This document shows positions 32,279 through 34,585 of a DNA stretch of 64,000 nt, in pieces. Positions within the stretch are counted from its first letter, which is position 1. Every line of letters starts with the position of its first letter. The stretch comes from Salinimicrobium catena. GTDB lineage: Bacteria > Bacteroidota > Bacteroidia > Flavobacteriales > Flavobacteriaceae. The notes beneath the pieces were generated by a model, which saw nothing but the letters and a program-made list of their open reading frames with translations, searched no databases and had not been told where the DNA came from. The translations under genes were made by a program, and so were the position numbers. Location of the stretch: contig NZ_FNGG01000001.1 of NCBI RefSeq assembly GCF_900102915.1, positions 496,001-560,000 on the forward strand, in the 5' to 3' direction.

Positions 32279-32310
32279 CTTGTTAAGTAAACAGAAGTTA
32301 TCTAAATTTG
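32279..32310 (+). promoter_or_regulatory. Putative promoter of the tRNA-Ile2 transcription unit
   Basis: TAAATTTG (32303-32310) matches TAnnTTTG exactly, with CTTG (32279-32282) 20 bases upstream. Transcription from here would include both tRNA-like fragments before the mature tRNA. Confidence 0.5.
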
Positions 32311-32335
32311 CACGCTCTCAACAGCGTTTGAGATT

Positions 32336-32379
32336 GGTCCTATAGCTCTCCCGATAGTTATCGGGATGGTTAGAGCACC
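32336..32379 (+). repeat. tRNA-Ile2 5'-half copy 1 with palindrome in the D-loop
   Basis: The first 13 bases match the tRNA (GGTCCTATAGCTC), and the end TGGTTAGAGCACC matches tRNA positions 17-29. Between them, TCCCGATAGTTATCGGGA (8-bp arms) replaces the three bases AGT. GCTC and GAGC can still pair as a D-stem, now extended by the palindrome. There is no anticodon arm, T arm or 3' acceptor strand. Confidence 0.9.
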
Positions 32380-32383
32380 AAGC

Positions 32384-32424
32384 GGTCCTATAGCTCTCCC
32401 GACACATCGGGGGGTTAGAGCACC
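32384..32424 (+). repeat. tRNA-Ile2 5'-half copy 2 with palindrome in the D-loop
   Basis: The same design as the copy 4 bases upstream: GGTCCTATAGCTC, then TCCCGACACATCGGGG with a different loop, then GGTTAGAGCACC. It ends 5 bases before the intact tRNA. Both copies are truncated at the same base. Confidence 0.9.
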
Positions 32425-32429
32425 AGAGC

Positions 32430-32503
32430 GGTCCTATAGCTCAGTTGGTTAGAGCACCTGACTCATAATCAGGTGGTCCCTGGTTCGAGCCCAGGTGGGA
32501 CCA
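32430..32503 (+). tRNA. tRNA-Ile2 (anticodon CAT, lysidine-modified)
   Basis: 74 bases, full cloverleaf: acceptor GGTCCTA/TGGGACC, D-stem GCTC/GAGC, anticodon stem CCTGA/TCAGG with loop CTCATAA, T arm CCTGG-TTCGAGC-CCAGG and discriminator A. CCA is not encoded. The GACTCATAATC anticodon region matches E. coli tRNA-Ile(CAU) rather than tRNA-Met, so C34 is expected to be converted to lysidine by TilS to read AUA. The 3' end serves as the attachment site of the adjacent element. Confidence 0.93.
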
Positions 32504-32504
32504 C
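32492..32504 (+). other. attL core of the integrated element
   Basis: CAGGTGGGACCAC, the tRNA 3' end, recurs at 39172-39184 as a direct repeat. Identity ends at the next base on both sides. Confidence 0.85.
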
Positions 32505-32518
32505 AGAATACACTTTAG

Positions 32519-32555
32519 AAGCCCTATGAACAGTACGTTTGTAGGGCTTTTTTTA
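32519..32555 (+). terminator. Element-supplied terminator after the tRNA
   Basis: AAGCCCTA (32519-32526) pairs with TAGGGCTT (32542-32549) and is followed by a run of seven Ts. It lies inside the element, 15 bases beyond attL, so it replaces the tRNA terminator displaced by integration. Confidence 0.75.
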
Positions 32556-32556
32556 T

Positions 32557-32580
32557 TTCAGGGGACGAATGAGGGGACGA
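32557..32580 (+). repeat. 24-bp direct repeat, left copy (candidate recombinase arm site)
   Basis: Begins TTCAGGGGACGAATGAGG and is identical over 24 bases to 39027-39050. It contains two GGGGACGA units separated by ATGA. It lies 53 bases inside attL and just upstream of the OLD gene -7 box. Confidence 0.9.
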
Positions 32581-32626: not shown

Positions 32627-34585
32627 ATGAAAATAAATAAGATCGAAGTCAAGAACATTAAAAGTTTTAAAGAACAAATAATAGTAGATTTTAACAAAGA
32701 CTTCAATATTCTAATCGGCCCCAACGGAAGTGGTAAAAGTAATTTATTAGATATTATCACCATTTGTATTCGGCATTTCTTTCTTAAAACATTTACGCTT
32801 AATGAAGGGACTGATAATAGTGGCTTCTATAAGGATATTCAACCCGCATTTTCATTCAGTAATGTCGGTTATTCTTTAGACAAATTTTACGGAGATGATA
32901 GTGATTCCGAAATAATCTTTCAGTTTTTAATACAAAAAGAGGATATCCAGAATATTCAGACTATCCAGTCAAATATTGGTAAACTTGAGGCGGAATTACT
33001 TAAATACAGATTTGGGCAAAATCAGAAGCATTATTTAGATAGTGTCAAAAATTGGAAGACAGGTTCTCTTAAGGAAAATGATATCCTGACGTACAACATT
33101 AAAAATAATCAGTTAAATAGTAACTTGACTGAAGAAGAAAGAACTTTTCTTCAATATCTTAATTGCTTTGAACTTCTCCTTATTTTAATAAGAGACATCC
33201 CAGAAGTTAAATTAAACACTAATTATCTCTTTTTTAGTCCATACAGAGGAGCAAATTTGCAGAATCTACAGGCTAATTTATCCGCCCAAAATTTCTATGG
33301 AATTCTAAAATCACATTCGGATGCTACTTCAAAGTCTGTGTTTTCTTTAATTATGCTCGCAACCATTTATTTTGCTGAGAAGAGAAGAAGATTCGAAGAT
33401 GAAGCCTCAAATCAAGGATATGAACAGAAGTGGAAACAGGATGATGAGGTGAAATTGGTTTCGAAGTACTTAGGAAAACTAGGGTATGGATGGAATCTTA
33501 AACTAGTAGATAAGAATAAAAATATCTACGAAATTATTTTAACAAAGGAGGATAAACAGTTTTATATAAATCAGGCTAGTTCTGGGGAAAAGGAGATAAT
33601 TAATTTTATGCTTGGAATCTTTGCACTGAATTTGAAAAATGGCATCATTGTGATAGATGAACCAGAACTTCATTTACATCCTAGATGGCAAAATGTCTTG
33701 CTTGAATTATTTATTGAACTTGCTACAATTACCAAAAACCAATTTATTGTTTCAACTCATTCACCGACATTTATCAATGATAAATCTTTAAATCATATAT
33801 TCCGAATTTACAAAGATGAAAATAACATTAGTCGGCAAGTAACATTGAAAGATAACCATACTTTTAAACTCCGAGACATTCTTCATATCGTAAATAGTAC
33901 AAACAATGAAAAGTTATTCTTTGCAGATGTCGTTATCTTAGTGGAAGGAATTACTGATAGGTTAGTATTTCAAAAAATTCTGAAGGATAAGTTAGAAAAT
34001 TTAGGTGTAACTAAAATTATTGAGATTATTGAAATAAAGGGGAAACATAACATTCAAAATTTCAGAAATTTTTTAGATATGGTGAATGTGCCAAATTTCT
34101 TTATTAGTGATCTTGACTTTATCAATGAAGTGGGGACTAAAGAAATAAAATCTTTTTTTATAACGGATGAAAAAAAAATAAAAAAGGATGTGATTAAAAA
34201 TCCAAAAAGTAAGGATGGAGAAACATTGGTAAAAGCAATGGATGAAGCTATACAAGGAGGGGAGATTTCACAATTACAAAATTTATGGAATTATATTAAA
34301 TCTTTCAGGAGAAAACTAAAATCTGATCTTAATGAGGGTGAAGAAAAAATTCTTTGGAATTTTTTAGAAGATCAGAAAAGTTTAAGAAATTATATTTTAA
34401 AACAGGGGGACATCGAGGAATACTTTCCTTCTGACTTTAAGAGTAAGAAATTGACCAACGTAATTGCACTGTTGTCGAATACCGAATATGAAAAATGGAA
34501 AACCTCTCCAGAATTTAAAGAGTTGTCACATATAGTGGAGGAGATCCTTCTTCGTTCCAATCTGATTGAGGAAAAAGATAATTAA
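32627..34585 (+). CDS. OLD-family nuclease: ABC-type ATPase plus TOPRIM domain
   Basis: 652 residues. The ATPase domain has Walker A GPNGSGKS (about 31-38), signature SSGEKE (about 317), Walker B IIVIDEPE (about 340) and H-loop STHSPTF (about 377). The TOPRIM domain follows with Glu in LVEGITD (about 438) and the Asp pair in SDLDF (about 494). This is the domain order of phage P2 Old and of GajA. No UvrD-like helicase gene is adjacent, so it fits a stand-alone class 1 OLD rather than Gabija. The likely role is defence of host or element against competing phages. Its stop overlaps the Rep stop in TTAA (34582-34585). Confidence 0.9.
   Translation: MKINKIEVKNIKSFKEQIIVDFNKDFNILIGPNGSGKSNLLDIITICIRHFFLKTFTLNEGTDNSGFYKDIQPAFSFSNVGYSLDKFYGDDSDSEIIFQFLIQKEDIQNIQTIQSNIGKLEAELLKYRFGQNQKHYLDSVKNWKTGSLKENDILTYNIKNNQLNSNLTEEERTFLQYLNCFELLLILIRDIPEVKLNTNYLFFSPYRGANLQNLQANLSAQNFYGILKSHSDATSKSVFSLIMLATIYFAEKRRRFEDEASNQGYEQKWKQDDEVKLVSKYLGKLGYGWNLKLVDKNKNIYEIILTKEDKQFYINQASSGEKEIINFMLGIFALNLKNGIIVIDEPELHLHPRWQNVLLELFIELATITKNQFIVSTHSPTFINDKSLNHIFRIYKDENNISRQVTLKDNHTFKLRDILHIVNSTNNEKLFFADVVILVEGITDRLVFQKILKDKLENLGVTKIIEIIEIKGKHNIQNFRNFLDMVNVPNFFISDLDFINEVGTKEIKSFFITDEKKIKKDVIKNPKSKDGETLVKAMDEAIQGGEISQLQNLWNYIKSFRRKLKSDLNEGEEKILWNFLEDQKSLRNYILKQGDIEEYFPSDFKSKKLTNVIALLSNTEYEKWKTSPEFKELSHIVEEILLRSNLIEEKDN

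Follow-up and report, generated by a model that had tools for sequence, protein, structure and literature searches.

The two half-tRNA copies that stand before the tRNA gene with anticodon CAT in Salinimicrobium catena are probably (at a rough probability of 0.6) remnants without an open reading frame, or short non-autonomous forms, of a Bacteroidota mobile element family found at tRNA genes. The frame for this locus should therefore shift from a device in the leader of tRNA-Ile2 to one case of a more widespread arrangement, in which half-tRNAs have palindromic loops and are often accompanied by a GIY-YIG gene. The features of the locus are given below, with coordinates in the window, by which we mean the whole stretch of 64,000 nucleotides analyzed. 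They were read from the sequence or assigned by sequence match, and the intact tRNA was called by ARAGORN and Rfam.

32303 to 32310, plus strand: -7-type box TAAATTTG, a putative promoter element, kept in eight aligned congeners
32336 to 32348, plus strand: copy 1, tRNA positions 1-13, GGTCCTATAGCTC
32349 to 32366, plus strand: copy 1, palindrome TCCCGATAGTTATCGGGA replacing the D-loop bases AGT
32367 to 32379, plus strand: copy 1, 3' side of the D-arm, TGGTTAGAGCACC
32380 to 32383, plus strand: spacer AAGC between the copies
32384 to 32396, plus strand: copy 2, tRNA positions 1-13, GGTCCTATAGCTC
32397 to 32412, plus strand: copy 2, palindrome TCCCGACACATCGGGG replacing the D-loop bases AGTT
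32413 to 32424, plus strand: copy 2, 3' side of the D-arm, GGTTAGAGCACC
32425 to 32429, plus strand: spacer AGAGC between copy 2 and the tRNA
32430 to 32504, plus strand: intact tRNA, anticodon CAT (tRNA-Ile2 according to the earlier note on this DNA)

The intact tRNA scored 72.6 bits against the Rfam tRNA model and was typed as Met(cat) by ARAGORN, the tRNA-Ile2 label being the assignment of the earlier note. The sequence GGTCCTATAGCTC was found at three sites in the window (32336, 32384 and 32430), all exact, where shuffled sequences gave a mean of 0.04 with up to one mismatch permitted, and GGTTAGAGCACC was likewise found at three exact sites (32368, 32413 and 32447; shuffle mean 0.13). Chance as the source of these repeats, whose starts lie 44-48 bases apart, was excluded. 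Together, the sequence, ARAGORN, Rfam and the shuffles confirmed the original description of two tandem tRNA 5'-half copies with D-loop palindromes ahead of an intact gene, and the exact -7 box reported ahead of the copies was also present, as TAAATTTG at 32303. This box fits what we take to be the Bacteroidota -7 promoter box and is common to the leaders of all eight congeners aligned, whether copies are present or absent. The window copies, which lie between it and the tRNA, would presumably be transcribed. The claim that both copies are cut at the same base held within the window, where each ends in GAGCACC, but in relatives the 3' limit varies, lying in the D-stem in some and reaching the anticodon arm or farther in others. 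No GIY-YIG ORF lies between the copies and the tRNA, the spacers being of 4 and 5 nt, and an Rfam search of the locus returned the tRNA, one sub-threshold match on the opposite strand, and no other family. On the 3' side of the tRNA (32628-33000 and on) is the start of an ORF, MKINKIEVKNIKSF.., in which GPNGSGKS, read by eye, is a Walker-A-like motif.

In many Flavobacteriaceae, the leader of tRNA-Asn contains a broken half about 340-360 nt upstream of the tRNA, and the gap encodes a protein of ~95 residues, a few of these ORFs being frameshifted or shortened. Three such proteins matched the Pfam GIY-YIG domain (E 8.6e-10 to 8.7e-14), and an NCBIfam search with three tRNA-linked nucleases returned no family. 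The same layout of half, ORF and tRNA was found at the tRNA-Ile2 of Salinimicrobium sediminilitoris (G007, locus L193) and at a tRNA-Phe (L222). These tRNA-linked GIY-YIG genes point to mobile-element remnants, a reading absent from the earlier note.

A search for the nuclease alone in 149 genomes of the family gave 32 matches in 20 genomes, and 23 of the 30 loci read had a called tRNA within 700 nt; among those that did not (L292, L299, L302, L304, L310, L313 and L315), some had tRNA fragments or lay deep in an array. The 21 matches within the genus came from 6 of 12 genomes and yielded 20 loci, 18 of them with a called tRNA within about 1 kb, and the remaining two had tRNA fragments (L348) or nothing (L344); in both sets the loci of one array overlap, such that the counts are not independent, and the distances rest on ARAGORN calls as given, which also include palindrome-bearing pseudo-tRNAs (e.g., L149). 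As a control, seven other small GIY-YIG loci of S. catena were inspected, and none (0/7) had a tRNA within 1.5 kb. In the 40 distinct intact nucleases from the fetched loci (27 further matches that were broken, short or cut by the end of a stretch were left out), the residues Y, Y, G, R and H were present in 40/40 and E in 39/40; we take these six to be the catalytic residues of the GIY-YIG fold. A tRNA-type nuclease had no match in the S. catena genome at E<=1e-8, and likewise none in the congener G009. At locus L317 (G502:C44:275931-278948), three tandem nuclease units stand beside a Met(cat) tRNA, and in each of the three the palindrome lies within the coding sequence, always at one position, and splits the reading.

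A mirror layout was also found, in which the intact tRNA is followed by the nuclease ORF and then by a tRNA 3' half with a palindromic loop. The loop replaced in these 3' halves was the variable loop in tRNA-Asn, the T-loop in tRNA-Phe and the anticodon loop in the tRNA-Ile2-like and tRNA-Arg cases, and one genome (G172) had at least five tandem units of 391 bp. No palindrome-bearing half followed the ORF within the 170 nt read at L342, L344 and L345, and the stretch at L339 ends too early to show a 3' half.

Based on these layouts, we propose that the full form of the element would be a tRNA 5' half with a D-loop palindrome, a single-domain GIY-YIG nuclease ORF and the intact tRNA, in that order, and that its mirror would be the intact tRNA, the ORF and a tRNA 3' half with the palindrome in another loop. 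In the simplest account, the nuclease would cut a tRNA gene at a loop, and repair from an element-bearing copy would insert the palindrome, the ORF and a fresh tRNA half, such that a working tRNA would be rebuilt and the broken half would stay behind as an insertion scar. Loss of the ORF would then leave a unit of half-tRNA plus palindrome, which may amplify in tandem or be deleted cleanly between direct repeats. The cutting, the copying and the movement are steps that we infer, as is a former ORF in the window copies. In the window, a half-tRNA with a loop palindrome immediately adjoins an intact tRNA whose acceptor strand is the same, and the full form is present at the same tRNA of a close relative (L193, G007). 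The window has no GIY-YIG ORF between half and tRNA, and for this reason its copies would be a remnant or short form rather than a full element.

The pattern recurs well beyond this locus. A pattern search of 397 family genomes had matches in at least 88. Among the matches listed, 40 stretches were picked for reading, and 19 of these, from 16 genomes, were half-tRNA copies, the tRNAs behind them being Ile2, Asn, His, Trp, Phe or Gly (the contig of L082 stops short of a tRNA). The other 21 stretches had different contexts, including a GCGTTAGGG..AACGCCC repeat with the palindrome at its hairpin tip. This same palindrome is held by the repeat GCGTTAGGGATTGAGC..GAGCTC-palindrome-AGCGAG..AAAGCCCGACC..AACGCCC in L096-L103, L105, L106 and L116, and Rfam gave no convincing family for nine further loci, three of them with the GCGTTAGGG..AACGCCC repeat, for which no match exceeded the threshold.

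A scan of GTDB species with an exact pattern of D-arm plus palindrome found at least 116 stretches with at least 141 copies, and the record titles of all 116 stretches among the matches listed name Bacteroidota taxa. Among the matches listed, 115 of the 141 copies are followed within 700 nt by a tRNA whose acceptor strand matches theirs (at most 2/7 mismatches). One copy has such a tRNA upstream only (L181, in which a run of N follows the copy), and 25 have none, 18 of them at the end of a stretch and seven otherwise; these seven include L190, whose array is longer than 700 nt. The acceptor 7-mers of copy and tRNA were identical in 103 of the 115 pairs among the matches listed, with one mismatch in nine and two in three. 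Seventeen kinds of tRNA were represented among the matches listed, Asn being the commonest (35), and the tandem half-tRNA arrays had up to 11 units. To see whether the duplication ends exactly at tRNA position 1, the 12 positions upstream were compared, and in this uncontrolled comparison 35 to 75 of 98 copy-tRNA pairs among the matches listed were identical per position. The longest array, that of L190 (CP012155.1, Bacteroidetes bacterium UKL13-3), is of 11 tandem half-tRNA-Asn units of 80 nt each, and four GIY-YIG ORFs at a spacing of about 410 bp lie within the same 8 kb.

Of 148 phylum genomes, 17 had the bare palindrome, at 78 places in all, and only two of these places, both in S. catena, had the D-arm context. 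The palindrome is thus a general dispersed repeat of which the half-tRNA form is a minority. Two places in 148 genomes, both in S. catena, led us to reject a common occurrence of D-loop copies in the phylum. A hairpin tip as the constant site of the palindrome was likewise rejected, since several of the contexts read had no outer stem.

All 40 tRNA genes of the S. catena genome, as identified by the Rfam tRNA search, were read with their flanks. The upstream scan, which reached up to 700 nt and at least about 520 nt where the stretch was shorter, identified broken copies at 4 of the 40: tRNA-Ile2 (two copies), tRNA-Gly(GCC) (a copy with a D-loop palindrome), tRNA-Arg(CCT) at C24:370363 (L254; a copy with a hairpin in the anticodon arm) and one tRNA-Pro(TGG) at C5:46351 (L246; a copy with a different palindrome in the D-arm region). 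Downstream of the 40 tRNAs no broken copies were found in a scan keyed to the initial 13 nt, which would overlook 3' halves. The sequence TCCCGATANNTATCGGGA occurs at three places in this genome, two of them inside the half-tRNAs. At C7:1500-3500 of the genome (L005, L277), tandem 152-bp repeats contain TCCCGAAACGTCGGGA hairpins and one TCCCGATAGCTATCGGGA, and these repeats adjoin a small GIY-YIG gene away from any tRNA.

The dispersal of the palindrome bears on a rival explanation, in which the 5' half of a tRNA gene underwent an ordinary partial tandem duplication by slippage or recombination, a dispersed REP-like palindrome then landed in the redundant copy, and the nuclease settled at tRNA genes independently. 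Duplication of a 5' part necessarily puts the truncated copy upstream, which would account for the direction, and the palindrome is widespread outside tRNAs, with insertions in the nuclease ORFs of G502 and at the hairpin tip of another repeat. In addition, many copies have no nuclease nearby, and most copy-to-tRNA spacings were 47-166 nt among the matches listed. However, two rare events would have to coincide repeatedly at the same loop. The GTDB scan set was selected by palindrome, but the Arg, Pro and congener copies, which were found without palindrome bait, also have hairpins, and the mirror layout with the nuclease between tRNA parts is left unexplained by duplication. We therefore consider this explanation doubtful, although it retains some real chance of being correct.

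The copies at tRNA-Ile2 itself are patchy. The tRNA-Ile2 pattern was found at 46 places in 41 of 99 relatives, and 30 loci were read, five of them 3' halves only. Half-tRNA copies were present at 4 of the 25 intact tRNA-Ile2 loci read, all four in Salinimicrobium. Among the 12 genomes of this genus, two that are 74-75% complete (G001 and G008) had no match, the locus of G011 was a 3' half, and the second matches of G003 and G011 were left out. Of the nine intact loci read, those of S. catena (G000), G006, G007 and G009 were filled and those of G002, G003, G004, G005 and G010 were empty. In a tree of the neighboring epimerase gene (one gene, ~440 nt), each filled genome paired with an empty one with supports of 0.945-0.999, which indicates at least four gains or four losses. 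The insertions of G006, G007 and G009 have clean borders, with the shared leader on one side and GGTCC on the other; the S. catena leader is too diverged there for its borders to be judged. In S. sediminilitoris, the tRNA-Ile2 leader combines a full element with a short form that has decayed, and the nuclease of G007 was a 100% match to the S. sediminilitoris nuclease. The check for copies in related genomes that the earlier note had proposed was thus positive, for tRNA-Ile2 and for other tRNAs, and given these copies its suggestion of a specific palindrome-associated process is likely to be correct.

Its other suggestion, selection for a function in the leader, was not borne out. Conservation in orthologous leaders would be expected of a regulatory leader, and copies were present at 4 of the 9 genus loci read, filled and empty loci alternate on the one-gene tree, and the copies have drifted in their acceptor strand (GGTACTA, GGTCTTG, GGTCCTG), which stays constant in the tRNA itself. 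According to this explanation, the copies would provide the pre-tRNA with an additional 5' acceptor strand and with a stable hairpin of the D-arm, by which the rate of RNase P processing or the folding of the tRNA would be set. A ViennaRNA model of 32317-32560 predicted pairing of the 3' acceptor strand with copy 1 at a probability of 0.475, with copy 2 at 0.315 and with the true strand at 0.206, but equilibrium folding ignores tertiary contacts and folding during transcription. Consistent with a leader function are the identical acceptor 7-mers in 103 of the 115 copies among the matches listed (a copy being counted at up to two mismatches) and the recurrence in many Flavobacteriaceae of tRNA-Asn copies with an ORF. 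Against it, the copies are absent in five of nine genus genomes and drift where they are present, and we regard a leader function as unlikely. Far less credible still is a role as decoys for tRNA-targeting nucleases. The usual target of such nucleases is the anticodon loop, and although the copies resemble the 5' halves of many tRNA kinds, the short forms lack this loop and their presence is patchy.

Several observations weigh against the mobile-element reading, which we nevertheless prefer. There is no ORF in the window copies and no match to the tRNA-type nuclease at E<=1e-8 in S. catena or in the filled genome G009. Within the genus, the presence of a nuclease gene does not go with that of Ile2 copies: in G004, G005 and G010 the nuclease stands at other tRNAs while tRNA-Ile2 is empty. 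The intact tRNA beside an element should itself be a target of the nuclease. The palindrome is dispersed on its own, even inside the G502 nuclease ORFs; L342, L344 and L345 are without a palindrome-bearing half in 170 nt, and L344 is without a tRNA; and four losses fit the genus pattern as well as four gains. A more specific version, which we put forward tentatively as possible, is a homing drive with rescue: a selfish element across Bacteroidota whose single-domain GIY-YIG nuclease would cut essential tRNA genes at a loop and bring its own tRNA half to rebuild them. The palindrome in the broken half would then mark the cut site, and the window would hold two scars.

GIY-YIG homing endonuclease genes are free-standing or lie in introns. 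The element described here resembles them in having a small GIY-YIG-domain gene with conserved residues, a site at a conserved gene and a patchy distribution. Unlike them, it has no intron or intein, the host tRNA is kept whole by a duplicated half, the broken half is palindromic, and homing is putative. In integrative elements that use tRNA att sites, and in the E. coli tyrT/rtT repeats, it is, as far as is known, mainly the tRNA 3' part that is duplicated, without a palindrome. The att-site elements share with the window a partial tRNA copy as a direct repeat beside an intact tRNA, and tyrT/rtT shares repeated units beside a tRNA, whereas the window duplicates the tRNA 5' half, with a palindrome. 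No integrase gene lies in the 94 bases taken up by the two window copies.

REP palindromes and similar palindromic repeats of bacteria are short, dispersed and mostly outside genes, sometimes inside, with a tag of GTAG or CGTC at the palindrome foot (PMC3733652). The palindromes studied here are similarly short, dispersed and mostly outside genes, sometimes inside; those of the window differ in sitting in half-tRNA loops, and by eye neither a GTAG nor a CGTC tag is present at the foot of the two. Mitochondrial repetitive hairpin elements and palindromic repeats are another comparison: in the available parts of the two papers, hairpins spread in the genome, stems are kept while loops vary, and palindromes nest (PMC2800124, PMC2670323). 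The spread of hairpins, kept stems with variable loops and nested palindromes are all shared; the mitochondrial elements are organellar, and neither a linked GIY-YIG gene nor a tRNA half is described in those parts. In the literature accessible as titles and the starts of abstracts, from which most subscription papers and preprints were missing, no bacterial GIY-YIG genes with half-tRNAs and palindromes were described, and a text search with three palindrome strings and one longer form had no match.

If the mobile-element reading is correct, the tRNA genes of Bacteroidota host a compact nuclease-bearing element, and odd half-tRNAs in leaders are the scars of its movement. This would offer a natural system for studying how a nuclease gene can take up residence in an essential gene that it rebuilds, and would caution against assuming that every tRNA mimic in a leader is a regulator. 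Single-domain GIY-YIG proteins, which to our knowledge are common and unexplained, would gain a testable job.

Two further observations concern partial tRNAs and palindromes in other settings. At C19:8471 of S. catena (L008), the palindrome TCCCGATAGCCATCGGGA forms the loop of a terminator-like hairpin, AATTGC..GCAATTTTTT. At L017, L019, L024, L032 and L038 of relatives, tRNA-Ile2 3' halves occur without a 5' half, as expected of the att sites of integrative elements.
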